From an uncultured delta proteobacterium (GTDB lineage Bacteria > Desulfobacterota > WTBG01 > CAIYCZ01 > CAIRTM01): DNA of 57,028 nucleotides. The notes beneath the pieces are model-generated. The model was not told the DNA's origin. It worked only from the letters and a program-made list of their open reading frames with translations, and did not search any database. The stretch is taken from the NCBI GenBank assembly GCA_903881505.1, contig CAIRTM010000126.1, positions 1-57,028 on the forward strand. The letters run 5' to 3'. A program made the translations under genes and the position numbers. Shown piece by piece: positions 3,972 through 21,823 of the stretch (its first letter is position 1; each line of letters opens with the position of its first letter).

Positions 3972-5128
3972 AAATCCTGCATTGCTGCTTGGCTGCTTTC
4001 TATATCGATGATTTCAGTTACCAGGAGAATATTCTCCCTAAAATGCATAAAAAACAGGGGCATGATGTGATAATTTTAGCCTCAACGGAAACATATGTAT
4101 CTAATACAAAAATAGGATATCAGGAGCCTGCTGAATATAAAACCAGGGAAGGCATTCCGATAAAAAGAATTCCTTATGTGAAATGGATACCCCATAGATT
4201 AGCTCGGAAATTGAGGCTGTATAAAGGCGTATATAAATTTTTGATTTCCTGCAGGCCCGACATAATTTTTCTGCATGATTTTTCATTTCTGAGTATTGCC
4301 AGTATTGTAAAGTATGCCAAACAAAATAAGGATTTGCGGATTTATGTTGACGGCCATACTGATTTTACAAACTCAGCGAGAAATTGGGTTTCATATCATA
4401 TTTTACACAAAGTTATTTATAGATATTGTGCGAAATTAATAGAGCCATACGCGAAGAAATTTTATGGAACTTTGCCAACCAGGGTTGATTTCATTGTCGA
4501 TGTATACGGAGTAGCTGCCAATAAAGTTGAATTATTAGAAATGGGCGTTGATGATAGCGTTATTGCCGGCATTAACAAAGATGAAGCTCGACGGATAGTA
4601 AGAAAGCAATATCATTTGAGAGAAAGTGATTTTGTAATCGTTTCAGGGGGGAAGATCAATAAATTAAAAAACATTCACAAATTGGTTCAGGCTGTTGCTG
4701 AGTTGGGACGTAATGATATTAAGTTGTTGCTGTTTGGTAGTTTTGATGAATATGCTCAAAAGGAAATAGGCAAATTTGAAAAAAACGCTTCGGTAATAAA
4801 TATCGGCTGGGTTCAGTCCGAAGAAGTGTATAAATATTTTTTTGCTTCAGATTTAGCATTTTTCCCGGGAACGCATTCGGTGTTATGGGAGCAAGCTGTA
4901 GGAGCAGGCCTGCCTGCGGTATTTAAAAAAAATAAGGGTCAAGATCATGTTGATGTGGGGGGTAATTGTAAATTTATAGACAACACTGATGTGGAAGACA
5001 TCAAACGAGTTATCTTAGAAATATGTGACGATAAAGAGGTATTGAGCGCACTCAAACGAAATGCTGAAGGAAAGGGAGCTAAAAAATTTTCGTACTTTGA
5101 GATTGCAAAAAAAGCAATAGAAATGTAA
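3968..5128 (+). CDS. Glycosyltransferase family 4 (GT-B fold)
   Basis: A 386-residue retaining glycosyltransferase of the GT-B type. The N-terminal half has the acceptor-side Rossmann pattern (DIIFLHDFSFLSIA near residues 98-111). The C-terminal donor-binding half has VSGGKINKLKNIHKLVQA near 225-242 and a PGTHSVLWEQAVGAGLP segment near 300 that corresponds to the EX7E sugar-nucleotide site. It presumably adds one sugar to the lipid-linked repeat unit of the polysaccharide on the cytoplasmic face of the membrane. Donor and acceptor cannot be read from sequence. It is coupled to the acetyltransferase by a four-base overlap, and 240 bases separate it from the next gene. Codons are AT-rich as in the rest of this cluster. 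Confidence 0.85.
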   Translation: MKILHCCLAAFYIDDFSYQENILPKMHKKQGHDVIILASTETYVSNTKIGYQEPAEYKTREGIPIKRIPYVKWIPHRLARKLRLYKGVYKFLISCRPDIIFLHDFSFLSIASIVKYAKQNKDLRIYVDGHTDFTNSARNWVSYHILHKVIYRYCAKLIEPYAKKFYGTLPTRVDFIVDVYGVAANKVELLEMGVDDSVIAGINKDEARRIVRKQYHLRESDFVIVSGGKINKLKNIHKLVQAVAELGRNDIKLLLFGSFDEYAQKEIGKFEKNASVINIGWVQSEEVYKYFFASDLAFFPGTHSVLWEQAVGAGLPAVFKKNKGQDHVDVGGNCKFIDNTDVEDIKRVILEICDDKEVLSALKRNAEGKGAKKFSYFEIAKKAIEM

Positions 5129-5368
5129 TGCTTGTATTTAAGCAGACAGGAAATCATTCCGGTCAGTTAATATCGTGTAAGCATGCTAATGCGGACAGCA
5201 TTGTTTTGAATCCGCCACCCTTAGTTACACTTCTCGGCTATTAAGATTTTGGCATTGCGGGTATCTTAATATTTCTTTACCGGTATCGGCGCTGTAATTT
5301 ACAAGGTTAACAAGTTTCGCCTTACTGGGTTTTTTGAAACAACCAGATTAATTACAACCCTAAAAATA

Positions 5369-6511
5369 ATGGATACTATGAGACACTATCAAATTTGCAC
5401 TAATTGTGTAATGGATACTTCGGATTCGAGAATCGTGTTCGATGATAGGGGGGTCTGCGACCACTGCATCGATTTTTATCAAAATGTTTTACCGAATTGG
5501 CATACTGACGAACGCGGCCGGCAAGCATTGGAGAACACAGTTGTAAAAATAAAGGAGTCCGGCAAAAAGAATGACTTTGACTGTCTCTTGGGGCTTAGCG
5601 GCGGTGTTGACAGTTCCTATATGCTGCATTTGGCTGTAAAGGAATTCGGCCTCAGGCCTCTTGTTTTTCATGTGGATGGAGGATGGAACTCCGAGTTGGC
5701 TGTCCATAATATACAGGTTCTTATTGAAAAACTTGGCCTTGATTTATATACGGAGGTCATTAACTGGGAGGAAATGAAGGACTTTCAGCTGGCTTTTTTT
5801 AAGTCAGGGGTCCCCCATATCGACATCCCACAGGACCATGCCTTTGTTGCGACTCTTTATAATTTTGCTGATAAATATAATATCAAATATATTCTCAATG
5901 GGGGCAACATTGCAACCGAATGTGTCCGCAACCCGATGGAGTGGTTGTATTACGGAACCGATATGGCGCAGTTGCATGATATCATGAAACGTTACTCTAC
6001 GGTGGAGATGAAAACCTATCCATTTAGTTCTATTTATAGGCACAAGATCTATCTGCGCTACATCCGGGGGGTCAGAGTTGTTAAAATGCTAAATTACCGT
6101 CCCTATGTTAAAAAGGAAGCTTTAAATTTTTTAGAAAAAGAATATGGCTGGAAACCTTATCCGCAAAAACATTTTGAATCACGATTTACTAAGTTCTTCG
6201 AAGGATATTGGTTACCCGAACGCTTTGGCTTTGATACACGCCGGGTTCAATATTCAAGCTTGATACTGACCGGACAGATGGCTCGAGAAGATGCGATTGA
6301 AAAATTGAAAAAGCTCGCTTATGGCCCGGAAACGATTGAAGATGAGTTTAATTATATTGCTACGAAATTAGGCATCACTTCCGATGAACTAAAGCATTAC
6401 TTTACGATGCCAAAAAAATTCTATTGGGACTACAAGAATCGTGTAACTTTTTTTGTTGTTGGCGCAAAAGTGCTGAAAGCTTTTGGCGTTGAGAGATCAA
6501 TTAAAAGATGA
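5369..6511 (+). CDS. N-acetyl sugar amidotransferase (WbpG/PseA-like, PP-loop ATPase)
   Basis: A 380-residue PP-loop enzyme. The ATP-pyrophosphatase signature SGGVDS lies at residues 77-82. Before it, C10-x2-C13 and C30-x2-C33 form a likely zinc-binding site typical of this family. The family converts an acetamido group of a UDP- or CMP-sugar to an acetamidino group, using ammonia supplied by a HisH/HisF-type pair; WbpG in Pseudomonas O-antigen and PseA in flagellar pseudaminic acid synthesis are the known relatives. The next gene, with a four-base overlap, is HisH, which fits this role exactly. The start could be ATG 5369 or 5378; no clear ribosome binding site decides. The product sugar (2,3-diacetamido uronate or nonulosonate) is inferred. 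Confidence 0.88.
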   Translation: MDTMRHYQICTNCVMDTSDSRIVFDDRGVCDHCIDFYQNVLPNWHTDERGRQALENTVVKIKESGKKNDFDCLLGLSGGVDSSYMLHLAVKEFGLRPLVFHVDGGWNSELAVHNIQVLIEKLGLDLYTEVINWEEMKDFQLAFFKSGVPHIDIPQDHAFVATLYNFADKYNIKYILNGGNIATECVRNPMEWLYYGTDMAQLHDIMKRYSTVEMKTYPFSSIYRHKIYLRYIRGVRVVKMLNYRPYVKKEALNFLEKEYGWKPYPQKHFESRFTKFFEGYWLPERFGFDTRRVQYSSLILTGQMAREDAIEKLKKLAYGPETIEDEFNYIATKLGITSDELKHYFTMPKKFYWDYKNRVTFFVVGAKVLKAFGVERSIKR

Positions 6512-7122
6512 TTACTATTATTGATTACGGTCTTGGCAATATCCGTGCTTTTGTTAATGTCTATGAACGGTTAAATGTAGAGACGAAAATTGCCCGCAAT
6601 TCCGGAGATCTACGCGGAGCGTCAAAAATTATTTTACCGGGCGTAGGGGCTTTTGATCATGCCATGACTCAACTTAACCGGTCTGGCATGCGGGATGAGC
6701 TTGAAAAGCTGATCTTCGTAAAAAAAATTCCTGTTATTGGTATTTGCGTGGGCATGCAAATGCTTGCCAAATCAAGTGATGAAGGCGTCATTCCCGGTCT
6801 GGGATGGATTGATGGTGTGGTAAAAAAATTTGATGCTTCTTTATTGAAATCTAAAACTCGTTTGCCCCATATGGGATGGAATACAATAAATCCAATGAGC
6901 GGCAATAAACTGCTGTCGCAATTCAGTAATGAAGCCAGATTTTATTTCCTGCATTCTTACTATTTTCATTGCAACAACTCAGGAGATAGTATTGCAATTA
7001 CTGAATATGGCGTCAGGTTCTCCAGCGCAGTAAATTACGACAATATTTACGGTGTACAGTTTCACCCGGAGAAAAGCCATGCAAACGGTATTCAGCTTTT
7101 GAAAAATTTTGCGGAAATTTGA
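6508..7122 (+). CDS. hisH: HisH-type glutamine amidotransferase serving the sugar amidotransferase
   Basis: A 204-residue class I glutaminase closely following the imidazole-glycerol-phosphate synthase subunit HisH. The nucleophile is Cys80 in GICVGMQ, and His186 and Glu188 in VQFHPEKS complete the triad. It releases ammonia from glutamine. It starts inside the stop of the amidotransferase (ATGA overlap) and is AT-rich, so it is probably the polysaccharide-dedicated paralog (as hisH2 in Pseudomonas O-antigen loci) rather than the histidine-pathway gene. The expected HisF partner is not downstream: the next features are a terminator and a convergent operon. Confidence 0.88.
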   Translation: MITIIDYGLGNIRAFVNVYERLNVETKIARNSGDLRGASKIILPGVGAFDHAMTQLNRSGMRDELEKLIFVKKIPVIGICVGMQMLAKSSDEGVIPGLGWIDGVVKKFDASLLKSKTRLPHMGWNTINPMSGNKLLSQFSNEARFYFLHSYYFHCNNSGDSIAITEYGVRFSSAVNYDNIYGVQFHPEKSHANGIQLLKNFAEI

Positions 7123-7386: not shown

Positions 7387-9861
7387 TCAGGTGGGTTGGC
7401 CCGCCGGTTTTGCTTCTTTTTTGCGGGCGGTACGCTTTGCCGGCTTACCGGCCTGCTGCGCCAGCGCCTTCCTGGTCTCCGCCACCTCTTTTGGGGTGAC
7501 GGTTTTCCTGAGCTGCTCCATCTGCTCCATCACATCGCGCCAGCGGGTGGCCTCGGCCGCGCTGACCCATTCGAGCTGCAGCCGCTCTTTGCGCAGCCCC
7601 AGGGTCTCCATTTTCTTCCACATGCGCTGCAGGCGCTTCTCGGTCCAGTGGTTGGCGTCGATATAGTGGCAGTCGCCGATATGGCAGCCCGAGACCAGCA
7701 CCACGGGCGCGCCCTTCTCGAACGCATGCCACACGAAATCCTCCCGCACGCGGCCCGAGCACATGGTGCGGATCAGCCGCGCGTTGGGCGGATACTGCAG
7801 GCGCGAAACGCCCGCGAAATCGGCGCCCGCGTAGGAGCACCAGTTGCAGGCGAACACGACGATGCGGTTCATGGCGTCTTCGGACAGGACCGCGTCGACC
7901 TGGGCCGTTATCTGTGCGTCGGTGAAATGGTGCATCTCGATCGCGTTCGAGGGGCATTCGGCCGCGCAGGTTCCGCATCCGGCGCAGGCGGCCGTGGTGA
8001 CACGCGCGGGCTGGCCCGAGCGCTTGTCGAACTGAATGGCATGGTAGGGGCACACGCGCGCGCAGATGCCGCAGGCCGTGCAGGCCTCGGGGTTGATCTC
8101 GGCCGTGATGGATTCGACCGTCAGCTCGCCCGGGGTCATCAGGCGCATGGCGCGCGCCGCGGCGGCCGAGGCCTGCGTGACCGATTCCTTGACGTCCTTG
8201 GGCCCCTCGGCGCATCCGCAGAAAAAGATGCCCCGCGTCGCGGCGTCGACCGGCTGCAGCTTGGGATGGGCCTCGAGGTAGAAGCCGTCGGCGGTTTTCT
8301 GCAGGGCCATCATTTCCTGCAGCACGTGCATGTCCTCCGGCGCGTGCACGCCGGTGGCCAGCACAACCATGCCCGCGCGGTGCTTCTCCAGCTGGTTGGT
8401 GGCGGTGTTCTCAACGGTCAGGACAAGGTCGCCTGTCGCGGCGTCCTCCTTCACCGATCCCGGCAGGCCGCGGATAAAACGCACGCCCAGCTGCTTGCTG
8501 CGCTGGAACAGGTCCTCGAAACCCTTGCCGAAGGCGCGGATATCGATGTAGAACACCTTGACCTCCGTCTCGGGGTAGTGTTCCTTGAGCATGATGGTGC
8601 TCTTGATCGTGTTCATGCAGCAGATGTTGGAGCAGTAGCGGTGCCCGGTCTTGAACGAGCGCGAGCCCACGCACTGGATGAAGGACACCGCGTCCGGCAC
8701 GCGCTTATCCGTCAGCCGCTGGACTTCGCCTCCGGTCGGGCCGCCCGCGTTAATCAGGCGCTCAAGTTCCATGCTGGTGAGCACGTTGGGGAATTTCGTG
8801 TAGCTGTACTCGTCCAGCTCCGTGGGGTCGTAGACCTCCATGCCGGTCGCCACGATGATGGTGCCGACATCGAATTCGAGGATCTCGTCGCTCATGTTGA
8901 AGTCGATGCAGTTCTTCTCGCACTTCTCGCGGCACTTGCCGCAGATGATCGGGTTGTGGCCCAGGCAGCTTTCAATATCGACCACGTAGGAGGACGGGAT
9001 GGCCTGCGGGAAGGGCGAATATATCGCCCGGCGCGACGACAGCCCCATGTTGAATTCATCCGGAACCACCACGGGGCAGACCGCGACGCAGTCGCCGCAG
9101 GAGGTGCACTCGGATTCGCGCACGTAGCGGGTGCGCTTCAGAACGCGCACATGGAAGTTGCCGACATGGCCGGTAACCTCTTTGACTTCACTCAAGGTCA
9201 GGAGCTCGATGTTTGGATGCCGACCGGCATCGGACATTTTCGGCCCCAGTATTCATATGGAGCAGTCCATGGTTGGAAACGTCTTGTCCAACCTGGCCAT
9301 GATCCCTCCTATGCTGGGCTGTTTCTCGACAAGTACCACCTTGCAGCCCGAATCCGCAAGGTCGAGCGCTGCCTGTATGCCGGCCACGCCGCCGCCGATC
9401 ACAAGGGCCCTGTTCGTAACGGGCACGCTCAGTTCCCGGCGCGGCTGCAGCAGGCGGGCGCGCGCCACACCGGCGCGGATCAGGTCGCGCGCCTTGGCGG
9501 TGGCGGCCTGCGGATCGCCGGCGTGCACCCAGGAGCACTGCTCGCGCAGGTTGGCCATGTCGAGCAGGTAGGGGTTCAGGCCGGCATCAGCGAGGCATTT
9601 GCGGAACGTGGGCTCGTGCAGGCGCGGCGTGCACGAGCCGATCACCACGCGGTTGACGCCCTTTTCGGCAATGTCGTTCTTGATCAGCTGCTGGCCCGGC
9701 TCCGAGCACAGGTAGGCGCTGGTGCGCGCAACCGCCACGCCGTCCAGGCCCCCGGCATAGGCCGCGACCGCCGCGCAATCGACCGTGGCGGCGATATTCA
9801 GGCCGCACTGGCAGACATACACGCCGATCCGGATTTCTTCCTGCTTGCTTGTGCGATTCAT
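7387..9861 (-). CDS. hdrA: HdrA-MvhD fusion, probable selenoprotein (UGA at 9255-9253 read as Sec203)
   Basis: Read through one in-frame UGA this is an 824-residue flavoprotein. An N-terminal HdrA domain is followed by a FAD-binding GGGVAGIQ near 156-163, then DCSI-Sec-ILGPKM, where HdrA proteins have Cys or Sec. Ferredoxin-type [4Fe-4S] sites follow at about 252 (CTSCGDCVAVCP), 594 (CTACGICARVCP) and 626 (CAGCGTCAAECP). The C-terminal MvhD domain starts near 672 with CNWCSY. HdrA is the flavin-based electron-bifurcating subunit of heterodisulfide reductases. A GAGAGGG lies 7 bases before ATG 9861. It is the last gene of the kor-hdr operon. Taken as two proteins, the upstream part would end inside a conserved motif and the downstream part would lack the FAD domain, so read-through is much more likely than a pseudogene. 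Confidence 0.9.
9209..9237 (-). promoter_or_regulatory. SECIS-like hairpin directing Sec insertion at UGA 9255-9253
   Basis: Downstream of the UGA the transcript can form an upper stem GATGCC/GGCATC (positions 9231-9226 and 9221-9216) closed by a GGUC loop, and a lower stem ATGT/ACAT (9237-9234 and 9212-9209) across a small internal loop. The apical GGU lies 27 bases after the UGA. Bacterial SECIS elements are short hairpins just 3' of the UGA with exposed guanines in the loop, and this fits that description. Confidence 0.75.
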
Positions 9862-9913
9862 CTGTTTTCCCTCTCGCAAGTGTGTATATATATAACCGGC
9901 ACGTGTGTGCGGT

Positions 9914-11074
9914 CTACCCGGTCCATTCAATGCCCCGGGCAAGGATGCTTGTCAGGTCGCGGATGTTCACCTCGACCTTTTCGTTGCGCGCGGGGTCGCG
10001 CATGGCGCAGCTCAGGTGGATCATGCATTTCGGGCAGGCGGTCACCAGCAGCTGCGCGCCCGTGGCGCTCACCTCCCGCAGGCGCTGCACCTGGATGTTT
10101 TTCGAATAGGCGTCGCAGTTGATAAAGCCGCTGTTGCCGCAGCAGATCGCGCCGCGCCCCGAGTTCTCCATTTCACGCAGGACAAGGCCCGGGATCTGGC
10201 CCAGCAGAAAGCGCGGGGCCTCATAGCAGCCGCTCATGCGCCCCAGGCGGCAGGGGTCCTGAAAGGTGGCGGTCGTTTCAAGCGGCCGGAACGCCTTGCC
10301 GCCCTTGCGGACCTCTTTCTGCAGCAGATCGAGCAGCAGCGTCACCTTGATATCAAAGCCCGGTATCACCTCGGGCATGTGCGTGCCCAGCATGGTGTAG
10401 CATTCCGGGCACGACACGATGATCTCCTCGATGCCGGCGCTTTTAAATTCCTCATAGTTCAGCCGGCACAGGGTTTCGAAGTTCTCGCGGTCCCCGGCCC
10501 ACAGCAGGTCATGGCCGCAGCAGCGCTCGTTTTTCAGCAGCACCGGCTCGATGTCGAGAAAATTGAGCAGCCGCACGCTGTCGCGCGCAATCGTGAGGGT
10601 GTCGACCTGCAGGTGCGCGAAAAACACGTCGAAGTAGGGCGCGCACCCGCTGAAATAGGCCACCCTGCCTTTCTGCGCGGTTTTCAGGTCGGGGCTCACC
10701 CATCCCAGGCGGTTCTGCTTCAGGTCCGGCGAGGTCATCATGCGCATCCAGGAGTGCAGGGCGCCGTCATGGGCGCGGTAGCCCTTGAGTCCTTTTTCAG
10801 CGGCCAGCAGCGCACGCATTTCGAGGATCACGCGGCTGATGTCCACGCCCGAGGGGCAGCGCTCCTGGCACAGCGAACAGGTCAGGCACTCCCAGACCGA
10901 AGATTCGATAAAGGCCTCGTCGTCGCGCTCCGAGATCAGCTTCTGCGCCAGCAGGCGCGGAGAGTACTCCTTGCCGGCCAGCATGCGCGGGCAGGCGGCC
11001 GAGCACTTGCCGCATTCCAAACACTGGTACAGCGCGTTGTCGCGGATGATTTTTGTTATGCGCACACTGTCCAT
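9914..11074 (-). CDS. HdrC-HdrB fused subunit (HdrD-like iron-sulfur protein)
   Basis: A 386-residue protein with an HdrC-like ferredoxin half and an HdrB-like half, the arrangement of HdrD. Two [4Fe-4S] motifs lie near residues 18-29 (CLECGKCSAACP) and 62-73 (CLTCSLCQERCP). Two CCG domains follow, with RCCGHD and SCPEC in the first, and ICCGNSG and ACPKC in the second. In HdrB/HdrD these Cys sets bind noncubane [4Fe-4S] clusters that reduce a disulfide. It presumably takes electrons from HdrA and reduces a heterodisulfide or another thiol/disulfide acceptor; the acceptor in a non-methanogen is unknown. The start at 11074 leaves 4 bases after the mvhD stop. Confidence 0.88.
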   Translation of the reverse strand: MDSVRITKIIRDNALYQCLECGKCSAACPRMLAGKEYSPRLLAQKLISERDDEAFIESSVWECLTCSLCQERCPSGVDISRVILEMRALLAAEKGLKGYRAHDGALHSWMRMMTSPDLKQNRLGWVSPDLKTAQKGRVAYFSGCAPYFDVFFAHLQVDTLTIARDSVRLLNFLDIEPVLLKNERCCGHDLLWAGDRENFETLCRLNYEEFKSAGIEEIIVSCPECYTMLGTHMPEVIPGFDIKVTLLLDLLQKEVRKGGKAFRPLETTATFQDPCRLGRMSGCYEAPRFLLGQIPGLVLREMENSGRGAICCGNSGFINCDAYSKNIQVQRLREVSATGAQLLVTACPKCMIHLSCAMRDPARNEKVEVNIRDLTSILARGIEWTG

Positions 11075-11078
11075 GCTT

Positions 11079-11504
11079 TCAGACGGCCTCCCGTTCCTGG
11101 CGCGGCTTGGCCGGGTTGGCGCCCATGGCCTCGATGCGTCCGGCAAACGCCCACAATTCGGCCGCCATGCGGTCCTTCTCGTGCGCCTCGAACCTGCATT
11201 CGACCAGGCGCTGCTGGTCGATGCCGAGCAGATCGAGCAGCGATCTCACCAGCTGCACGTTTGAATGCCCGACCGCGGGACCGGGCCCGTAGCGGCAGTC
11301 CTCATCGCGGCACTCGAGCAGGATCACGCCGTCGGCCCCGTACTCGAAGGCCTTCAGGATCAGGGCCTGGTTGATGCGGCCGATGCACATGACCCGGATA
11401 ATGCGCAGGTTCGGGGGCAGCTGGGTGTTCGTGCGGCCGGCCGCGTTCAGGCAGGTCCACGGGCTCCAGTTGCAGCAGATCGCGAGCAGGTTAGGACGCT
11501 TCAT
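11079..11504 (-). CDS. MvhD-like hydrogenase iron-sulfur (electron transfer) subunit
   Basis: A 141-residue protein of the MvhD/FlpD family, which carries electrons between a donor oxidoreductase and HdrA through a [2Fe-2S] cluster. Visible Cys groups are CCNWSPWTC near the N-terminus, VMCIGR in the middle and ECRDEDC after it; the usual CNWCSYAGAD is altered here. A second MvhD domain is fused to HdrA in this same operon, so the complex has two. The start ATG 11504 overlaps the end of the upstream 1119-residue gene by 14 bases. No MvhA/MvhG hydrogenase subunits occur in the window, so the electron donor is likely KOR or the flavoprotein next to it (inference). Confidence 0.85.
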   Translation of the reverse strand: MKRPNLLAICCNWSPWTCLNAAGRTNTQLPPNLRIIRVMCIGRINQALILKAFEYGADGVILLECRDEDCRYGPGPAVGHSNVQLVRSLLDLLGIDQQRLVECRFEAHEKDRMAAELWAFAGRIEAMGANPAKPRQEREAV

Positions 11505-14500
11505 CGAATGGTTTCCCCCCCAGGGCGTCGGCCACGAGCGCTTCGAGCAGCTGGTTTGAAAAATAGGGCATGTCAAGCGCCGTTACCGGGCAGCGGCCCA
11601 CGCATCCGCCGCAGCCCACGCAGTTGTGGCGCGCCACCTCGGCCGTGTACATGCCGTCCAGCCCCGGCACCAGGTGAATGGCGTTGAAGGGGCAGATCTC
11701 AACGCAGCGGCCGCAGCCCCGGCAGCGCTGCGGGTCAACGCGGGGGCTGATCAGGTGGTCCTTGAGAAACGCCTCGGCCGCGCTGCGGGCGACCTGGGCG
11801 GCCAGGGCCGCGCCGGCCTCGAACTGCTGCACCCGCTCGAGCGTATGCGGCAGCACCCGGAAAAGGCCCGCCTGCGGCGTATGGAAAAAAGCGAAATCAT
11901 AGCGGTAGAGGTTTTTTAGGCCCGGCGTGTCCTCCTGCAGGGCCAGGGGCAGCACGGCCTCATCGACCAGGCAGACGATATCGGAGCGCCAGCGCCGGGA
12001 GGCGCCGTCCTGGCGGGCATGGATGGTAAAGTCGCCCATCCGGCCGCGCAGCTCTTTGACGGTCGCGCTGTCGACATGCGTAATGCCGCGGCCGCCGGAT
12101 GTGTCAACCGGGTGGTGCTGCGTCCGGGGCGGCCCCGCTTCAAGCTGCGGGTTGTGCACCAGCCTGACGCGGAAGCCCTGCAGGTCGAGATTGAGCGCGC
12201 AGCTGCGGCCGATGTCTCCGCCGCCCAGCACGATCACATGCTTGCCGATCTGCGTGCGGCCCTGCATGAGCGGGGCCATGTAGCGCGCGCGGATAAAGGA
12301 CGCGCGCAGCAGATCGCGCGCCTTTTCCACCACCTCGTCATCGCTCAGGTTCTCGGCCAGAAGCGAGTCCCTGAGATTGATCGTCTCAAAGCGGCTGCGC
12401 GGCAGGCCCAGGCGCTCGAACAGGTGCAGCCGCGCGCGGGTGCGCTGGTCATTGCAGGAAATGCACTGAAACTCAAGCGGGCAGCACACGCACGAGGCCA
12501 GCACGACCCGGGTGATGCCGTGGCGGCGCATGGCGTCCGCGACCGCGTCGGAGCCTTTCGGGTTGCAGGCCGAGATCAGCAGCTCGCTGTGCACGACGCC
12601 GCTTACCCGCCCGGCCAGGTCGCGCACCCGTTCGAGCGCGGCGCGCGGGGCCAGGGTATCGTTGCAGGTGCACAGGAAAAACCCGATGCGGACCTCGTCG
12701 CTGAGGTCTTCCACGTCGGTTTCACGGGGAACGGCCGGCCGGCGCAGGTTCGCGGCCGCGACCATGGCCCTGCCCGCAGCGGCGCTGCCCGAGAGCATGA
12801 CATCCATGAGATCGTGCTGCAGGTCTGCGACCCGGAACACCCGCTCGGCCTCGAGCAGGCCGGCGTCCGGCAGCTCGTGCGCGTCGGCGACGATAATGGC
12901 CGGGGCTTCGACCGTAAAGCGCCTGGCGGTGCTGAAATGGCTGATGGCGCTGATCTGTCCGCAGGCCTGTTCGCAGATGCGGCACTCGCAGCACACACTG
13001 CACTGCAGGCATCGCTTGGCCTCGGCCACGGCCTCGTCCACGCCGAGCCCCATGTCGACCTCGTCAAAATCGCGGCAGCGCACGCGCGGCAGGCGCTGCG
13101 GCACACCGGGGCGGCCCCGGCGCAGGAGCGATTCCGGGATGTCAGGATACTCGCCCACGCCGCGGTTTTTCGGGGGTATCGTTTCAAACGAACAGGCCTG
13201 GCCGGTCAGGTACTCGATGATGCCGGCCGCGGCGGCCCGGCCCGCGGCCATGGCCTCGACCACGGTCGAGGGCCCGGACGCGACGTCGCCGGCCGCGAAC
13301 ACGCCCGCAACCGGGGTTGCATAACGCTCATCGACAACCGCGCGGCCGCCCGCACCGGTTGCGATTTCACTCGCCAGGCCGCACTCTTTCAGCTGCGGAC
13401 GCTGGCCGATGGCCACGATCACGCAGTCGGCATCAAGCGAGAAACTGTCACCGCTGTCATAGACGATCTTTTGTGAGCCGTCATCCTGCAGCTGCCAGCG
13501 TCCCGCCCGGCACACCACCCGCTCAAGGGCCCCGGCTCCTTCAAAGGCGACCGGCACGGTCCCCAGCACGAACGACACGCCCTCTTCGCGGGCCTCGCGC
13601 ACTTCGCGCGGATGGGCCGGCATCTCCTGCTCCTGCTCGATGCCGACAACGGTCACGTGTGCGGCCCCGAGGCGCAGGGCCGTGCGCGCGGCGTCCATGG
13701 CGGAATTGCCCGCGCCGATGACAATGGTCTTCTTCCCGACCGGGGCCGATCCTTTCAGGTTGACCGCGCGCAGAAAGGACACGCACGCATTGACGCCCGG
13801 GAGATCCTCGCCGGGAATGCCGAGCCGGAGGTCGGCCTGGGTTCCCGCGGCAAGCAGCACCGCGCTGAAGCCGTCGGCCAGCAGCTGCGCGGCGCTTGCG
13901 ACGGTTGTTCCGGTTTTGATGCTGACACCGGTGTTTTCGATCGCCCGGATTTCGACATCGAGCACCCTGCGCGGCAGCCGGAAGGAATTGATGCCGGCTC
14001 TGAGCATGCCGCCGGCCTGCGGCAGGGCTTCAAACACGGTAACCCGGAAGCCCTCGCGGTTGAGATAGTGAGCGGCAGTGAGTCCGGCCGGGCCTGAGCC
14101 GATGACGGCAACGCGCTCGGCCCGGCGCTGCGCAGGCGGCGCAAAGGCGGGCGCAGCGCCCGAGGATGCTTCACAATCGGCCAGGAAGCGTTTGATATCG
14201 CGGATGGCCACGGCCTCTTCAACCTCGGCGCGGCGGCACTCGGCCTCGCAGGGATGGTGGCACACCCGGCCGCAGATGCCGGGCAGGGGGTTGGCCTCGC
14301 GGATGACGGCAAGGGCCTCCTCAAAGCGGCCGGCGGCCGTGAGCGCGAGATAGGCCTGAGCGTTCACGCCCAGCGGGCAGGCGATGCGGCAGGCGCTCAT
14401 GGTGCGTTTGTCAAGCACAAGGGCGCGCGTGGGGCACTGGGCCGGACGGCGCGTGATCGGCGGGCGGGCCGAATCATTCAGGGGGCAGAGCTGCGTGCAC

Positions 14501-14850
14501 TTGCCGCAGCCCGTGCACAGGTCATAGTCGATGTAGCGCGGGTCCTGCTCGCCTTCGACAATGAAATTCTTCCCGCCTTCATCGACCGACACGATGCGCG
14601 ACTGGGGCAGGGCCGTCAGCAGCGGATGGCGCGTCACGCGCAGGTACAGGGGCCGGAACTGGTAATCAAGATCGGCGGGCCAGTCCGCGAACGCTTCGGC
14701 GCCCTCGGGCAGCTCGAGGTAATGCGGGCTCCGGGTGACCCAGGCCACGGGAATGCCGGACTGCACCATATCCTCGGCGACCTTCAGGGCGCCGTAGCCC
14801 GAGCCGACCAGCAGCACGGCCTCTATAGTGTCGCGCGCGCGCGTGTCCAC
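11491..14850 (-). CDS. Giant flavin/iron-sulfur hybrid: NfnB/GltD-like oxidoreductase + HdrA-like N-domain + two ferredoxin sites
   Basis: A 1119-residue multidomain protein. Residues 1-60 hold a nucleotide-binding start (VLLVGSGYGALK) and 112-122 a ferredoxin motif (CTGCGKCTQLC). From about 155 it follows the NfnB/GltD pattern: Cys-rich linker (CRIACPLGVNAQ; CGRVCHHPCEAEC), FAD site VAVIGSGPAGLTAA near 245, NAD(P) site VIGAGNSAMDAA, and GVFAAGDV. After a Cys-rich linker (CLQCSVCCECRICEQAC), an HdrA-like N-terminal domain begins at IGFFLCTCNDTL, followed by another GGGDIG nucleotide motif. The C-terminus has two more [4Fe-4S] sites (CRGCGRCVEICP, CVGCGGCVGRCP). It could connect NAD(P)H, ferredoxin and the Hdr modules. 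It starts 5 bases after korC. The fused architecture is unusual and its exact partners are unknown. Confidence 0.82.
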   Translation of the reverse strand: MDTRARDTIEAVLLVGSGYGALKVAEDMVQSGIPVAWVTRSPHYLELPEGAEAFADWPADLDYQFRPLYLRVTRHPLLTALPQSRIVSVDEGGKNFIVEGEQDPRYIDYDLCTGCGKCTQLCPLNDSARPPITRRPAQCPTRALVLDKRTMSACRIACPLGVNAQAYLALTAAGRFEEALAVIREANPLPGICGRVCHHPCEAECRRAEVEEAVAIRDIKRFLADCEASSGAAPAFAPPAQRRAERVAVIGSGPAGLTAAHYLNREGFRVTVFEALPQAGGMLRAGINSFRLPRRVLDVEIRAIENTGVSIKTGTTVASAAQLLADGFSAVLLAAGTQADLRLGIPGEDLPGVNACVSFLRAVNLKGSAPVGKKTIVIGAGNSAMDAARTALRLGAAHVTVVGIEQEQEMPAHPREVREAREEGVSFVLGTVPVAFEGAGALERVVCRAGRWQLQDDGSQKIVYDSGDSFSLDADCVIVAIGQRPQLKECGLASEIATGAGGRAVVDERYATPVAGVFAAGDVASGPSTVVEAMAAGRAAAAGIIEYLTGQACSFETIPPKNRGVGEYPDIPESLLRRGRPGVPQRLPRVRCRDFDEVDMGLGVDEAVAEAKRCLQCSVCCECRICEQACGQISAISHFSTARRFTVEAPAIIVADAHELPDAGLLEAERVFRVADLQHDLMDVMLSGSAAAGRAMVAAANLRRPAVPRETDVEDLSDEVRIGFFLCTCNDTLAPRAALERVRDLAGRVSGVVHSELLISACNPKGSDAVADAMRRHGITRVVLASCVCCPLEFQCISCNDQRTRARLHLFERLGLPRSRFETINLRDSLLAENLSDDEVVEKARDLLRASFIRARYMAPLMQGRTQIGKHVIVLGGGDIGRSCALNLDLQGFRVRLVHNPQLEAGPPRTQHHPVDTSGGRGITHVDSATVKELRGRMGDFTIHARQDGASRRWRSDIVCLVDEAVLPLALQEDTPGLKNLYRYDFAFFHTPQAGLFRVLPHTLERVQQFEAGAALAAQVARSAAEAFLKDHLISPRVDPQRCRGCGRCVEICPFNAIHLVPGLDGMYTAEVARHNCVGCGGCVGRCPVTALDMPYFSNQLLEALVADALGGKPFDEAS

Positions 14851-14855
14851 GGTTC

Positions 14856-15419
14856 TCAGTGCTCCTGCCGGGCCCGGCCCTTTAAAATTTCCCCGCCGTA
14901 TTCGCGGCCGCGGTCAAAAGCGGCCGCGTTCTTGTCGCGCGTCTTGGGCGGAACGCTTTCCAGGACCGCCTGCCTGAGGGACTCGGGATCGACCAGCGCG
15001 CACACCGCGGCCACAAAACCCAGCATCACGATATTGGCCATCATCTTGTTGCCCATCTCCTCGGCAAAGCGCGTGGCCGGGATATTGTAGCAGCGCCATT
15101 GATCGCTCAGTTCTGCGGGCTTTACCAGGTCGCTGTCCCATAGCATGGCGCCGCCCTCCTGCAGCATGGCGCAGTTTTTCTGAAACCCGGCCTGGCTCAT
15201 GCAGATCATCACCTGCGGATTTTCAACATAGGGGAACAAAATGGGCTCGTCGCTGATCACGACCTGCGAGGAGCACGATCCGCCGCGGGCCTCGGGCCCG
15301 TAGGACTGGGTCATGGTCGCATGCCGGTTGTCGTACAGGGTCGCGGCCATGCCGAGGATGTTGCCGGTGAGCACAATGCCCTGGCCGCCGAATCCGGTGA
15401 TCAGTATTTCCGTTTCCAT
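14856..15419 (-). CDS. korC: 2-oxoacid:ferredoxin oxidoreductase, gamma subunit
   Basis: A 187-residue gamma (catalytic domain III) subunit of 2-oxoacid:acceptor oxidoreductases. The N-terminal ITGFGGQGIVLTGNIL and the TQSYGPEARGG segment are family signatures that contact CoA and the other subunits. I start it at ATG 15419, where METEILITGFGGQG begins; AGGAG lies about 9 bases upstream, and the longer open frame upstream overlaps korB in a shadow frame. It lies 22 bases after the korB stop. Together with KorABD it should form the four-subunit enzyme that interconverts a 2-oxoacid plus CoA with acyl-CoA, CO2 and reduced ferredoxin. Confidence 0.9.
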   Translation of the reverse strand: METEILITGFGGQGIVLTGNILGMAATLYDNRHATMTQSYGPEARGGSCSSQVVISDEPILFPYVENPQVMICMSQAGFQKNCAMLQEGGAMLWDSDLVKPAELSDQWRCYNIPATRFAEEMGNKMMANIVMLGFVAAVCALVDPESLRQAVLESVPPKTRDKNAAAFDRGREYGGEILKGRARQEH

Positions 15420-15441
15420 GCTCCGGTGCTCCTGTGCCGGC

Positions 15442-16326
15442 CTACTGGCCGGAGGTGTGTTTCTGGCGCTCGAGATCGGGCCATTCGCCGAGCTGGCCGC
15501 TGTGGACCAGCGCGTAATTGTCGCTGAACGTCGGCCGATCGCGGTCGATGAAATCGCCGACCAGAAGCGGCCCCTCAAAATCGAGCGGGGCTTCCCGCGG
15601 GTCGATGTTGTTCTTGATGACCGAGCGCTCGTGGAAGAATTTGATCATGTCGAGCGCGGCGCGCATCCGGTTGCGCCGCCCGAACGCGGTCGGGCAGGCG
15701 GCCAGCACCTCAACGAAGCTGAAGCCCGGCTTCAGGATGGCCCGGGTGAGCGACTCGGTCAGGCGCCGGATATGGATGCTGGTCCAGCGCGACACGTAGA
15801 CCGCGCCGCAGGCCGCGGCCAGCTGGCAGAAATCAAAGGGCTCCTCCGGGCTGCCCGTGGGGCTGGTGGTGGTTTTCGCCCCGAACGGGGTGCTCGGGGC
15901 CTGCTGCCCTCCGGTCATGCCGTAATTGAGGTTATTGACGCAGATAACCGTCATGTCGATATTGCGGCGCGCGGCGTGGATGAAGTGGTTGCCGCCGATG
16001 GCGATCAGATCGCCGTCGCCGGAGGCCACCAGCACCGCGCCCTGCGGCCGGGCAAGCTTCAGGCCGGTCGCGAACGGGATCGCGCGTCCGTGCGTGGTGT
16101 GATAGGAGTCGACCTTGATGTAGCCCGCCATGCGGCCCGTGCAGCCGATGCCCGATACCATGGCAACATCGTCAAGCGGCAGTCCGGTTTTGCGGATGGC
16201 GGCCAGCACGCAGCTGAACACCGTGCCGATGCCGCAGCCCGAGCACCAGATGTGCGGTATGCGTTCGCTGCGCAGCAGTTCTTCCTGCGGATGCTGCATG
16301 CAGGGCGCCGTGGATGGTTGATTCAT
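15442..16326 (-). CDS. korB: 2-oxoacid:ferredoxin oxidoreductase, beta (TPP-binding) subunit
   Basis: A 294-residue beta subunit. It holds the thiamine-diphosphate motif GDGDLIAIGGNHFIHA, closed by NNLNYGMTGGQ. Cluster-binding cysteines are WCSGCG near the N-terminus and a third, GIGCTG. The sequence SPTGSPEEPFDFCQLA is typical of 2-oxoglutarate (Kor) and branched-chain (Vor) type enzymes. It overlaps korA by four bases. Which 2-oxoacid is used cannot be settled from sequence alone; 2-oxoglutarate is the most common for this subunit arrangement. Confidence 0.9.
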   Translation of the reverse strand: MNQPSTAPCMQHPQEELLRSERIPHIWCSGCGIGTVFSCVLAAIRKTGLPLDDVAMVSGIGCTGRMAGYIKVDSYHTTHGRAIPFATGLKLARPQGAVLVASGDGDLIAIGGNHFIHAARRNIDMTVICVNNLNYGMTGGQQAPSTPFGAKTTTSPTGSPEEPFDFCQLAAACGAVYVSRWTSIHIRRLTESLTRAILKPGFSFVEVLAACPTAFGRRNRMRAALDMIKFFHERSVIKNNIDPREAPLDFEGPLLVGDFIDRDRPTFSDNYALVHSGQLGEWPDLERQKHTSGQ

Positions 16327-17483
16327 ACCGCCTCCTTGCGTATGTCTTCAACGGCGCTGAGAATGACGCCGGGCCGGATAATGGAGCCTCCGGCATGGCC
16401 CACCAGGCGCACCGGGCAGCGCCCGCCCGCGCAGCGCTCAAGCTCGAGCACCATCTGCCCAAGGTTGATCTCCGGCATGATCAGGGCCCGCACGCGGCCC
16501 GCAAGGCCGCGGATAAACTCCTCGGGAAAAGGCCAGACCGTGTTGAGCTTGACCAGGCCGAGCCGCAGGCCCCGATCGCGGCCCATGCGCAGGGCGCGCC
16601 GGGCCGAGCGCACGCTGATGCCATAGGCCACCAGCACGACCTCGGCGTCGTCGAGGTACTCGGTCTCGTAGCTGATGATCGCGTCGCGGTTCATTTTTAT
16701 TTTATTGACCAGGCTGTTGACCATCCGCTCCTGGGCGCGGTCCTCCATGGCCGGGTAGCCGTTCTCGCCGTGGGTCAGGCCCGTGACATGGATGCGGTAG
16801 CCGTCGCCGAAGCAGGCCATGGGCGCAACACCGTCGGCCTCGGGCCTGTAAGGCAGAAACTGCCCGGGCGCACAGGTCGGGCGCTTGCGCTCAACGACCT
16901 CGATCGCGCCCTCTTCCGGGATCAGCACCCGCTCGTTCATGTGCCCGACGACCTCGTCGGCCATGACGAGCACGGGCAGGCGGAAGCGCTCGCTCAGGTT
17001 GAAGGCCCGGATCGTGAAATCGAACATCTCCTGCGGGGAGGACGGGCACAGGGCGATGATCTCGTAGTGCCCGTGCGAGCCCCAGCGCGCCTGCATCATG
17101 TCGGCCTGGCCCACAAGCGTCGGCAGCCCGGTGCTGGGGCCGCCGCGCTGCACATTGCAGACCACGCACGGAGTTTCGGTAATGATGCCCAGGCCGAGGT
17201 TTTCCATCATGAGCGAAAAACCCGGACCCGACGTGCTGGTCATGGCCTTTTTCCCGCCCCAGCTCGCGCCCAGCAGCGCCGCCATGGAGGCGATTTCGTC
17301 CTCCATCTGGATGTACATGCCGCCCACCTGCGGCAGGCGGCGCGACATGCGCTCGGCCACCTCGGTCGCCGGGGTTATCGGATAGCCGGCAAAGAAGCGG
17401 CAACCCGCGGCAAGGGCGCCCTCGGCGCAGGCCTCATCGCCGTTCATGAAATGTGTTCCGGTTAAAACCGCCTTGGATGCCAT
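16323..17483 (-). CDS. korA: 2-oxoacid:ferredoxin oxidoreductase, alpha subunit
   Basis: A 386-residue alpha subunit (pyrimidine-binding and transketolase C-terminal-like domains). The family markers are FFAGYPITPATEV near residue 30, the MEDEIASMAALLGASWGG segment carrying the Glu that activates TPP, TSTSGPGFSLM, and GPSTGLPT. It carries GNPxPxxT-like features of Kor rather than the fused pyruvate enzyme. It sits between korD (63 bases upstream) and korB (four-base overlap). Product of the complex: acyl-CoA, CO2 and reduced ferredoxin, or the reverse carboxylation in autotrophs. Confidence 0.92.
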   Translation of the reverse strand: MASKAVLTGTHFMNGDEACAEGALAAGCRFFAGYPITPATEVAERMSRRLPQVGGMYIQMEDEIASMAALLGASWGGKKAMTSTSGPGFSLMMENLGLGIITETPCVVCNVQRGGPSTGLPTLVGQADMMQARWGSHGHYEIIALCPSSPQEMFDFTIRAFNLSERFRLPVLVMADEVVGHMNERVLIPEEGAIEVVERKRPTCAPGQFLPYRPEADGVAPMACFGDGYRIHVTGLTHGENGYPAMEDRAQERMVNSLVNKIKMNRDAIISYETEYLDDAEVVLVAYGISVRSARRALRMGRDRGLRLGLVKLNTVWPFPEEFIRGLAGRVRALIMPEINLGQMVLELERCAGGRCPVRLVGHAGGSIIRPGVILSAVEDIRKEAV

Positions 17484-17546
17484 GGGTAAACCTCTATGGA
17501 AATACGGTGCTTGGTGCGCGCTTTTGGAGCCGCTGCGGCAGTGCGG

Positions 17547-17813
17547 CTATGCCTCATCAGGGGATTCGATGACATAAATGGCAAATTCAGGGCACAGCGC
17601 CTCGCAGAAATGACAGCTCACGCAGCGCTCGGCCGCCTCTGCCAGCGGATAATGGTAGCCTTTGACGTTAAAGGCGCTCGACATTTTCAGCACATCGCGC
17701 GGGCAGTACTCGATGCAGAATTCGCAGCCCTTGCAGCGCTCTTCAATAATAGTCACGGTGCCCCTGCGGATGTGTATTTTTTCAGCATCAAGGGGGGTGC
17801 GCCAGAATTTCAT
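17547..17813 (-). CDS. korD: 2-oxoacid:ferredoxin oxidoreductase, delta (2x[4Fe-4S] ferredoxin) subunit
   Basis: An 88-residue ferredoxin-like subunit with two [4Fe-4S] motifs, [12 protein letters not shown] and [12 protein letters not shown]. It is the first gene of the operon and should pass electrons from the TPP/KorB site to ferredoxin or to the Hdr-like modules encoded downstream. I start at ATG 17813, with AGGAAA about 9 bases upstream; the frame is open further upstream but that part is not ferredoxin-like. Confidence 0.9.
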
Positions 17814-17893
17814 ACGGTTTGCTTTCCTGGTGAGGCCATCAGGGCCGGTTATGTACAACCGCTGCAGGCAACAAAAATCAAAAAAAGGGATAT

Positions 17894-18914: not shown

Positions 18915-20207
18915 CTATTCGTAGAAGTTCCAGGACTGCTCCTGGTTGAGCACCTTGATCGCGCAGAACTCGCCGCACATGGTGCAGACTTCACTGTCTT
19001 CAGGCTTGCGGCTGTCGCGCATGGAGCGCGCGCGTTCAGGGTCCAGCGAGGCGGCGATCTGGCCTTCCCAGTCAAGCTTTTTGCGGCAGCCCGCCATACG
19101 CTTGTCGCGATCAATGGCTCCGGGGACGCCTTTGGCGATATCGGCCGCGTGCGCGGCGATACGCGAGGCGATGACGCCTTCGCGCACGTCCTCTACCGTG
19201 GGCAGGCGCAGATGCTCGGCCGGGGTGACGTAGCACAGAAAGTCCGCGCCGTACATGGCTGCCATGGCGCCGCCTATGGCGGAAGTAATATGGTCATAGC
19301 CCGGAGCGCAGTCGGTCACGAGCGGGCCCAGCACATAAAAAGGAGAGCCGTTGCAGAGTTGTTTCTGTATCTGGATATTGGTTTTGATCTGGTCGATGGG
19401 CACATGGCCGGGCCCTTCGATCATAACCTGCACGCCGGCCTCAAGCGCACGTTTTGCCAGTTCGCCCAGCGTGATCAGCTCCTGAATCTGGCCGCGGTCG
19501 GTGGCATCGGCCAGGCATCCCGGGCGCAGCCCGTCGCCCAGGCTCAAGGTCATGTCATAGGAAGCCGCGATGCGGAGCAGACGATCGTAGTGCTCGTAGA
19601 GGGGATTTTCTTTTTTATTATGGGCCATCCACGCAACCGTGAATGAGCCGCCGCGGCTGACAACATCCATCATGCGGCCCTGGTTGCGGATGCGGGTGGC
19701 GGCCTCGCGTGTCAGTCCGCAGTGAACGGTGATAAAATCGACACCTTCCTCGGCCTGCTGCTCAATGACACTGAACAGGTGCTCGACGTCCATCTCTACG
19801 ATGGGCTTTTTTTTACGCGTTGTTTCAATGGCGGCCTGGTACAGCGGTACCGTGCCGATCGGCACGCTTGAGTTTTTGATGATTTCACGGCGTATGGCTG
19901 AAATATCGCCGCCCGTACTCAGGTCCATGACCGTGTCGGCACCTGCCGCGATCGACACCTTGAGTTTTTTGAGCTCCTCATCCGGGTCGGTGCAGTCTTT
20001 GGATGTGCCGATATTGGCATTGATCTTGGTGCGCAGGCCCTTGCCGATGCCGAGCGGTATAGCGTTCGTGTGTTTGATGTTGCGGGAGATGATGCAGTGG
20101 CCCGCGGCGATACGCTCGCGCAGGACCTCGGCGCTGATCCGCTCGTCTGCGGCAACATGCTGCATTTCAGGAGTGATGAGTCCGGCGCGGGCTTGCTGTA
20201 TCTGCAT
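18915..20207 (-). CDS. thiC: Phosphomethylpyrimidine synthase ThiC
   Basis: A 430-residue radical SAM enzyme that rearranges aminoimidazole ribotide into hydroxymethylpyrimidine phosphate, the pyrimidine half of thiamine. The length fits the shorter (archaeal/anaerobe type) ThiC class. The C-terminal CTMCGEFC provides the CX2CX4C cluster site of this family. Other conserved parts are ADTVMDLSTGGD, EGPGHVP and PLVTDCAPGYDHI. The gene lies one base after the stop of thiD-thiN, forming a two-gene thiamine operon on the minus strand. I found no TPP riboswitch in front of this pair. Confidence 0.95.
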   Translation of the reverse strand: MQIQQARAGLITPEMQHVAADERISAEVLRERIAAGHCIISRNIKHTNAIPLGIGKGLRTKINANIGTSKDCTDPDEELKKLKVSIAAGADTVMDLSTGGDISAIRREIIKNSSVPIGTVPLYQAAIETTRKKKPIVEMDVEHLFSVIEQQAEEGVDFITVHCGLTREAATRIRNQGRMMDVVSRGGSFTVAWMAHNKKENPLYEHYDRLLRIAASYDMTLSLGDGLRPGCLADATDRGQIQELITLGELAKRALEAGVQVMIEGPGHVPIDQIKTNIQIQKQLCNGSPFYVLGPLVTDCAPGYDHITSAIGGAMAAMYGADFLCYVTPAEHLRLPTVEDVREGVIASRIAAHAADIAKGVPGAIDRDKRMAGCRKKLDWEGQIAASLDPERARSMRDSRKPEDSEVCTMCGEFCAIKVLNQEQSWNFYE

Positions 20208-20208
20208 G

Positions 20209-21546
20209 CTATGACCTCTCTTCAGCTATTTTGAGAATTTTGTCCGCAACATCGGCCGGGTCGCAGCCCAGCACGCGGCAGACCGGCTCCTTGCCGGTGT
20301 CGCCACGGTCGAATATAATGTCGGGCACGCGGCCCATGCGCTCAATCACATCTCCGGTGCCCCACTCAAGGGTTGAGCCTTCACGCTGTTTCACATCAGC
20401 CGGCTCGCTGTTGCGGTCGAACTCGCCTACGCTGAAGCCGAGCCCGCGGCAGCGCTCAACGATCGCGGGCGAGTAGGCTATGTTCATGGCCGAACGGCAG
20501 GATCCGTCAGCGCGCATGGCCGTAAGGATTATTTTTGCTATATGCCGCGATGCGCCTGCAGCAGGCGATGCCACACGGACAATGCCGCCGTGCAGGCGGA
20601 TAATGCGGCCCGGGAAGGCGACTACGTCCTCAACGGCTCGCGCACCGCTTACGGCATAGCCCATGTTTGACTGTATCTCGGGTATGAGCCGGCCGATGCC
20701 GGCCTGCTGCAGGACGCTGAAGGCGGCCTCGAGCGCGGTTGCGCACAGATAGATCTGAGCGTTTCTCTCAAGCCCGGCCGCATGGTTGACCGGGCCCCGG
20801 CCTGATCCAAGCCGGCAGGCGCTGCGCAGAGCACCGGTCAGGTACTGCTTGGCGCCTTCAATTGCCTCCTGCGGTCCCAGCCCCCGGCCGAGCAGCGTGG
20901 CGATCGCGGCCGAGAGCGTACAGCCCGTTCCGTGCGTGTGCGGCGTATCGACGCGCGCTGCGCTGAAATGCCTGTGGGTGCGGCCGTCAAACAAAACGTC
21001 AACGCAGTCGCCCGGAAGGTGCCCGCCTTTGACCAGCACAGCGGCCGGGCCAAACGCATGAATCGCTTCAGCGGCCCGCTGCATGTCGGCAACGTTTTTT
21101 ACCGGCAGCCCCGCCAGCTGCGCTGCTTCCTCCATGTTGGGGGTCACGAGCGCTGCCATGGGCAGCAGGCGCTCGCACAGCGCGTCCATGGCGTCCGGCT
21201 CGATCAGACTATGGCCCGAGGTGGACACCATGACCGGATCGACCACCAGGCGCGAAACGCCAAAACGCCGAAGCTCATCGGCAACGGCCGCAATGATTTC
21301 AGCGCTCAGCAGCATCCCGGTTTTAACGGCGTTTGCGCCGATATCGTTCATCACCGCATCAATCTGAGCGCGCACGGTTGCAGGCGGCAGGCCGTATACA
21401 GCGCTTACGCCGAGCGTGTTCTGGGCGGTCACTGCAGTGAGCGCGCTCATGGCGCAGCCGCCCAGCACGGTTATGGTTTTAATATCTGCCTGAATGCCGG
21501 CGCCGCCTCCGGAATCGGATGCCGCGATGGTCAGAACTCTGTTCAT
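20209..21546 (-). CDS. thiDN: Fused ThiD-ThiN: HMP-P kinase and thiamine-phosphate synthase
   Basis: A 445-residue bifunctional thiamine enzyme. Residues 1 to about 260 are ThiD, with ASDSGGGAGIQADIKT at the N-terminus and the ATP-site DTPHTHGTGCTLSAAIA near 210. The remainder, from about 270, is a ThiN-type domain (SNMGYAVSGARAVEDVVAFPGRI, RHIAKIILTAM, DIIFDRG), which replaces ThiE for joining HMP-PP and thiazole phosphate. ThiDN fusions occur in archaea and several anaerobic bacteria. I start at ATG 21546; the frame is open further upstream but upstream residues do not look like ThiD. It is the first gene of the thiC operon. A ThiE homologue is not seen in the window. Confidence 0.92.
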   Translation of the reverse strand: MNRVLTIAASDSGGGAGIQADIKTITVLGGCAMSALTAVTAQNTLGVSAVYGLPPATVRAQIDAVMNDIGANAVKTGMLLSAEIIAAVADELRRFGVSRLVVDPVMVSTSGHSLIEPDAMDALCERLLPMAALVTPNMEEAAQLAGLPVKNVADMQRAAEAIHAFGPAAVLVKGGHLPGDCVDVLFDGRTHRHFSAARVDTPHTHGTGCTLSAAIATLLGRGLGPQEAIEGAKQYLTGALRSACRLGSGRGPVNHAAGLERNAQIYLCATALEAAFSVLQQAGIGRLIPEIQSNMGYAVSGARAVEDVVAFPGRIIRLHGGIVRVASPAAGASRHIAKIILTAMRADGSCRSAMNIAYSPAIVERCRGLGFSVGEFDRNSEPADVKQREGSTLEWGTGDVIERMGRVPDIIFDRGDTGKEPVCRVLGCDPADVADKILKIAEERS

Positions 21547-21823
21547 GAATACATCCTGGTCCGGCGTGCGCCGGGCAATGAAAAACGACGCTGCAGTGTA
21601 CGGGAAGGTTGTACGTACAGGTCCTCGGAAATGTAAGTAATAACAGAAACATGCATGCACATCAAGGCTTTTAATTTTTCCGCTTGTAACGCGTGGGCAT
21701 TCGTGCTATCCATCGCAGATTGCGGTTCGCGGCACGCTCCAGGACCTGCATCCGGAGGCATTTCCTGAAAGCCGGCTGACCCGCTGAACCGTTTAACCCG
21801 ACCATTTGCATCCGGGAATACGT

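Follow-up and report, generated by a model that had tools for sequence, protein, structure and literature searches.

A short HdrL-like hybrid protein encoded between Kor and HdrABC genes in an uncultured delta proteobacterium

The window analysed here is contig CAIRTM010000126.1 (57,028 nucleotides, assembly GCA_903881505.1) of an uncultured delta proteobacterium from the phylum Desulfobacterota. It encodes a 1119-residue hybrid protein in which a GltD-like module lies inside one HdrA half and is followed by a second HdrA half, and its gene stands between those for a 2-oxoacid oxidoreductase (Kor) and those for MvhD and HdrABC. Both HdrA halves lack the segment that carries the bifurcation residues of HdrA, which are kept in the separate HdrA of the same operon. 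Here we present the features of this protein and the case for reading it as the part of a Kor-HdrABC bifurcating complex that handles the pyridine nucleotide and relays electrons, a reading to which we give a probability of about 0.58.

Module architecture of the hybrid

The reading frame (window 11491-14850, minus strand) is unbroken over 1119 codons, from a GTG start at 14850 to a stop at 11491. Over the whole length the protein shares 84% identity with the product of a sister-species gene and 32-59% with other members of the family. Its parts are listed below (FAD, flavin adenine dinucleotide; NAD(P)H, reduced nicotinamide adenine dinucleotide (phosphate)).

11491..14850 (-), hybrid (short HdrL-like) protein, 1119 residues, GTG start
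14464..14826 (-), first HdrA half, residues 9-129: start of the FAD Rossmann fold and first ferredoxin cluster, Cys112-122 (hhalign, invariant cysteines)
12976..14409 (-), GltD/NfnB/StnC-like module, residues 148-625: FAD, pyridine-nucleotide fold, two iron-sulfur sites (Pfam PF14691 and PF07992, VIA-align)
12961..13011 (-), cysteine-rich linker CxxCxxCxxCxxCxxxC, residues 614-630, a signature common to the hybrid and long HdrL
12751..12933 (-), first HdrA FAD domain, collapsed to a remnant, residues 640-700, with about 180-190 residues missing relative to HdrL
12271..12720 (-), HdrA N-terminal domain, residues 711-860 (profile E 3e-41, HdrA matches in PDB)
12454..12492 (-), extra cysteines CxCCx5CxxC, residues 787-799, in 39 of 39 family members
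11755..12252 (-), second HdrA FAD-domain fold without NAD(P)H subdomain, residues 867-1032 (VIA-align Z 13-16 to FAD domains of HdrA and thioredoxin reductase)
11563..11742 (-), 2x[4Fe-4S] ferredoxin, residues 1037-1096, with the two C-terminal motifs at 1043-1087 (Pfam/NCBIfam)

Pfam and NCBIfam place the GltD-like module at about residues 150-620 and HdrA N-domain similarity at residues 721-900, and the sequence matches in PDB are StnC, NfnABC and NfnB for the middle of the chain and methanogen HdrA for residues 715-902. In profile-profile comparison (hhalign) with 35 HdrA sequences from the homologous operons, residues 711-946 match HdrA 28-267 with E 3e-41, far beyond chance, and residues 9-129 match HdrA 176-296 with E 1.6e-20; a weak HdrA-like return follows at residues 623-655 or so (HdrA 334-365). 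Because the HdrA matches are two and separate, the GltD module is placed inside one HdrA half, with the second half after it. The initial annotation, made from the sequence alone, had described NfnB/GltD-like, HdrA N-terminal and ferredoxin modules in one chain, and the domain searches, profile comparisons and fold matches bear this out; the domain search and the alignment of the C-terminal half to HdrA found more than an ordinary GltD protein. The HdrA likeness of the first 129 residues had been overlooked.

The AlphaFold2 model of the hybrid, built from 38 homologues, has a mean predicted local distance difference test (pLDDT) score of 79.6, with low confidence in the last 40 residues and in the loop at 794-798. 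Its GltD middle matches 9bov_A with Z 45.8 (468 aligned, 2.6 Å) and 5jfc_L with Z 36.7 in VIA-align, the range to NfnB and StnC folds being 36-46. As the fold search with the whole model was dominated by GltD, the C-terminal half was folded apart (pLDDT 72, predicted template modelling score 0.52); its best matches are HdrA chains (Z 14.7-16.2), and residues 867-1032 match the FAD part only of thioredoxin-reductase folds, the NAD(P)H part being skipped. The count of at least four flavin or nucleotide sites given in the initial annotation is overstated, since only the FAD site and the pyridine-nucleotide fold of the GltD module look intact and both HdrA FAD halves are without the NAD(P)H subdomain.

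The iron-sulfur sets listed earlier (N-terminal ferredoxin, GltD cysteines, cysteine-rich middle, two C-terminal motifs) are all present. Across 39 aligned sequences 32 cluster-type cysteines are invariant, in groups at 112-122 (a four-cysteine ferredoxin), 154-205 (GltD), 614-630, 727-799 and 1043-1087; their spacing alone suggests room for about seven to nine iron-sulfur clusters. The CxCCx5CxxC motif at 787-799 is found in all 39 short-family proteins, in none of 18 long HdrLs and in none of 35 HdrAs, and may provide an additional cluster in the HdrA-like N-terminal domain.

Relation to HdrL and the missing subdomain

Residues 5-1113 of the hybrid align collinearly with 18 long HdrL homologues, which have open frames of 1417-1737 residues (profile E 3e-204, 33% identity, 1082 columns). 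Compared with one long HdrL, the hybrid is without blocks lying within 711-901 and within 1193-1377 of the longer chain; relative to HdrL, the same NAD(P)H-type subdomain of about 185 residues is gone from both HdrA halves. The first-half gap covers the motifs of HdrA residues E356 and K409, which distinguish bifurcating HdrA (PMC12054007), and neither half retains the segment. None of the 39 short-family proteins has the K409 motif, against 16 of 18 long HdrLs and 35 of 35 operon HdrAs, and all 39 also lack the HdrA motif DCS[IM]-Cys/Sec. A regular expression for E356 also matches the GltD segment (EKVAVIGSGP type), for which reason its count of 21 of 39 in the short family is disregarded here in favour of the alignment gap and the K409 motif. 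The earlier proposal that the same chain also carries the bifurcating HdrA branch is not supported.

Judged by these alignments, the hybrid belongs to the HdrL group as a pared-down form, and loss of the subdomain from a longer ancestor would be the simplest reading. The second half, earlier taken for a diverged copy of the neighbouring HdrA, is indeed a relative of HdrA (E 3e-41), but a simple duplicate of the neighbouring gene is rejected, as full-length collinearity with long HdrL explains the hybrid better.

The nearest described protein is HdrL of Desulfobacterium autotrophicum HRM2, a fusion of heterodisulfide reductase and glutamate synthase next to MvhD for which use of NADH was proposed (PMC2702500). 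The likeness lies in the fusion of GltD with HdrA modules and in the adjacent MvhD, the HRM2 protein being compared by its description and the alignment being to the long HdrL-type proteins fetched. Long HdrLs differ in their complete HdrA FAD modules, the hybrid being shorter by about 185 residues per half; the hybrid in turn has the extra CxCCx5CxxC motif and is tied to Kor, not to Dsr or Fdh. GltD is also inserted in the HdrA ferredoxin region, as in the hybrid, in type III HdrA of ANME-1 and Bathyarchaeota, with NADH proposed as the mid-potential partner (PMC12054007). The same paper states that E356 and K409 are retained in every type III sequence, whereas the hybrid is without the segment in both halves and stands in a Kor operon.

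Operon, selenocysteine HdrA and distribution

The genes of the operon all lie on one strand, in the order KorD-KorA-KorB-KorC-hybrid-MvhD-HdrCB-HdrA, and at most junctions they overlap or are separated by a short gap.

17547..17813 (-), KorD-like ferredoxin subunit (NF042987, 69.7 bits, below cut-off)
16323..17483 (-), KorA, 2-oxoacid:acceptor oxidoreductase alpha subunit (NF006412, 569.9 bits, over cut-off)
15442..16326 (-), KorB, thiamine pyrophosphate (TPP)-binding beta subunit (Pfam/NCBIfam)
14856..15419 (-), KorC, gamma subunit (Pfam/NCBIfam)
11079..11504 (-), MvhD/FlpD electron-transfer protein (PF02662, E 1.1e-32)
9914..11074 (-), HdrC-HdrB fusion with two [4Fe-4S] motifs and two complete CCG motifs (family profiles)
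7387..9861 (-), HdrA with C-terminal FlpD domain, in-frame TGA read through (NF040770, 1203 bits)
9253..9255 (-), in-frame TGA in DCSI-U-ILGPKM of hdrA, probable selenocysteine
9215..9232 (-), hairpin GATGCC-GGTC-GGCATC downstream of the TGA, resembling a selenocysteine insertion sequence (SECIS) (direct pair count)

The Kor substrate is most likely 2-oxoglutarate, as suggested by family names only; citrate synthase is present in the host genome. All genes of the operon (7387-17858) are assigned, with no Flx among them, no search for Flx having been made elsewhere in the genome. The operon also contains no NfnA-like partner.

Aligned with 5odc_A, the HdrA of the window keeps the equivalents of both E356 and K409. 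In the homologous operons the same TGA interrupts every full HdrA gene (33 pairs), no unsplit HdrA was found there, and selB is present in the host genome. The hairpin is invariant or compensated in nearly all of 38 homologues; 97.4% of cells are paired, and the 13 compensatory cells all fall at a single pair. In minimum-energy folds a 78-nucleotide stretch forms the conserved hairpin (z -1.9) and a 53-nucleotide stretch a different one (z -0.9). The Rfam SECIS family gave no match in window or genome, and none in control genomes either. Selenocysteine in HdrA is already known (PMC1794560).

Searching about 85,000 species genomes with the hybrid's C-terminal half yielded at least 49 species loci (L053-L101) with the hybrid architecture. 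Among the matches listed, nearly all belong to Deltaproteobacteria/Desulfobacterota lineages, together with one Ca. Abyssobacteria contig, and about 40 of 395 sampled genomes of the phylum have the family. Cultured hosts are Desulforhabdus sp. TSK (L073) and Desulfoprunum benzoelyticum DSM 28570 (L095). Among homologous loci, KorB is adjacent in all 31 that extend far enough upstream to show it, HdrA lies downstream in 35 of 36, and Kor was found near long HdrL in none of 18 loci. By identity to the window protein the family falls into clade A (51-84%) and clade B (about 32-37%), the latter with MvhD fused to the HdrCB protein. In a tree of GltD domains the two clades form one group save for a single clade B sequence (L062:2267-5626), which groups with the long HdrLs and keeps their Tyr-Arg-Arg motif; it may be a recombinant, an intermediate form or a chimera of the assembly. 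No description of a Kor-short-HdrL operon was found in the open-licence literature.

By eye, thiamine biosynthesis-like genes (a ThiC-like gene, then a ThiD-like fusion; 18915-21660, minus strand) lie just upstream of the operon; KorB needs TPP. Genes of surface-sugar type (glycosyltransferase, N-acetyl sugar amidotransferase-like, HisH-like; 3968-7122, plus strand), also seen by eye, lie at its 3' end.

Nucleotide site, proposed electron flow and rival readings

The second motif of the nucleotide fold in the hybrid is GxGNxA, whose final alanine is associated with NADP (PMC12054007). The family conserves its glycine-rich motifs together with most residues of the GltD fold, and the FRLP arginine R291, aligned with the corresponding NfnB segment, is invariant. 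After beta-2, Tyr-Arg-Arg is found in the aligned NfnB and StnC chains and in most long HdrLs, but not in the hybrid, which has VVGIEQEQEMPA, i.e. Gly-Ile-Glu at the site. Four further clade A members have Ala/Gly-Ile-Glu and three have Tyr-Arg-Arg; clade B has Ser-Trp-Phe, except L062. An acidic residue after beta-2 often goes with NADH binding. In the hybrid this residue points to NADH and the final alanine of GxGNxA to NADP, and either nucleotide may be the preferred one. Within clade A (the window protein, L053-L059 and L099) the site switches between Tyr-Arg-Arg and x-Ile-Glu, which suggests a changed NADPH/NADH preference.

On the favoured reading NAD(P)H would exchange hydride with the FAD of the GltD module, and single electrons would pass via the iron-sulfur clusters of the hybrid and MvhD to the separate selenocysteine HdrA. 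Bifurcation or confurcation would take place there and not in the hybrid, a placement based on the E/K pair, absent from the hybrid and present in the operon HdrA. The high-potential branch would lead to the disulfide site of HdrC-HdrB, as both CCG motifs are complete, and the low-potential branch to KorD/KorABC, interconverting a 2-oxoacid, most likely 2-oxoglutarate, with acyl-CoA and CO2. In one direction NAD(P)H would drive reductive carboxylation, in the other the electrons of the 2-oxoacid would be recovered as NAD(P)H. We infer complex formation, cofactor loading and the path and direction of the electrons from genes and folds.

Nucleotide entry through the hybrid, as the initial annotation had suggested, is supported by the operon context and by the NfnB/StnC fold; in StnC, NADPH enters through a GltD module that does not itself bifurcate but supplies a separate module that does (PMC10482914). 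StnC (8oh5) and the NfnABC large subunits (9bov, 9n5u) are the closest solved folds and likewise let NAD(P)H enter through GltD toward a bifurcating partner; StnC carries NuoG/FdhF-like domains where the hybrid carries HdrA domains. In the tubeworm symbionts Endoriftia/Escarpia and in Thioflavicoccus, korABCD is interleaved with flxABCD-hdrABC, and direct electron flow from NADH to 2-oxoglutarate:ferredoxin oxidoreductase was proposed (PMC6315080, PMC11636981). Those clusters likewise tie genes of that enzyme to an NADH-linked HdrABC, but NADH enters them via FlxABCD and they belong to another phylum; here the candidate entry is the HdrL-like hybrid. By analogy, the best-supported reading is that the hybrid would substitute for FlxABCD as nucleotide module. 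With Flx-Hdr-Kor clusters and GltD-inserted type III HdrA already described, it is a variant of these.

Several points weigh against this reading. Adjacency of genes is no proof of a complex; given the lost Tyr-Arg-Arg, NAD(P)H specificity and even NAD(P)H use appear uncertain; and the host genome (97% complete) has neither a dsrA over cut-off nor DsrC. DsrC as partner of HdrB is rejected for this host on the same grounds.

The doubt about the nucleotide site leads to a doubtful though still sizeable alternative, in which the site no longer functions, in clade B at least, and the hybrid serves purely as an iron-sulfur wire or scaffold from Kor to MvhD/HdrABC in a 2-oxoacid:disulfide oxidoreductase without NAD(P)H. 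Most members have lost Tyr-Arg-Arg (clade B has Ser-Trp-Phe) while all cluster cysteines are invariant, and the collapse of both HdrA FAD halves makes pruning of flavin chemistry a family theme. Conservation of the glycine-rich motifs and of most GltD fold residues speaks against it, as do the three clade A members with Tyr-Arg-Arg and, in the window protein itself, an acidic residue such as NADH-binding folds often have at this site. That the hybrid itself bifurcates at the GltD FAD in the manner of NfnB, passing the high-potential electron to MvhD or another subunit, is unlikely. The fold is very close to NfnB (Z 36-37) and R291 is invariant, but the corresponding arginine is also present in StnC, where no bifurcation takes place at that flavin (PMC10482914), the operon provides no NfnA-like partner, and nearly every locus has an adjacent HdrA that carries the bifurcation residues. 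The best single-domain matches are GltD-like and would fit an ordinary GltD (glutamate synthase small subunit), or a generic FAD oxidoreductase, whose extra domains mean nothing; this is rejected as highly improbable, since both halves match HdrA profiles, the HdrA halves are conserved over at least 49 species loci with every cluster cysteine invariant, gltB is not adjacent, and a glutamate-synthase-like domain and the genome's own 480-residue GltD lie on other contigs.

Building on the favoured role as nucleotide module and relay, we tentatively consider a soluble supercomplex, which we hold to be possible but not probable. NAD(P)H would enter via the decommissioned HdrL, the selenocysteine HdrA would split the electrons, and the low-potential electron would pass directly to KorABCD, adding CO2 to succinyl-CoA without free ferredoxin. 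Such an assembly would be the 2-oxoglutarate-synthase analogue of the methanogen complex of formate dehydrogenase, Hdr and formylmethanofuran dehydrogenase.

Because cultured hosts exist, the proposed role of the hybrid is open to experiment. If it is true, many anaerobic Desulfobacterota link a reversible carboxylase of the tricarboxylic acid (TCA) cycle to flavin-based electron bifurcation via an NAD(P)H module of its own, with a bearing on the working of the TCA cycle near the energy limit in such organisms. With the same subdomain gone from two tandem HdrA halves, the hybrid would also clearly exemplify the conversion of an enzyme into an electron adaptor.

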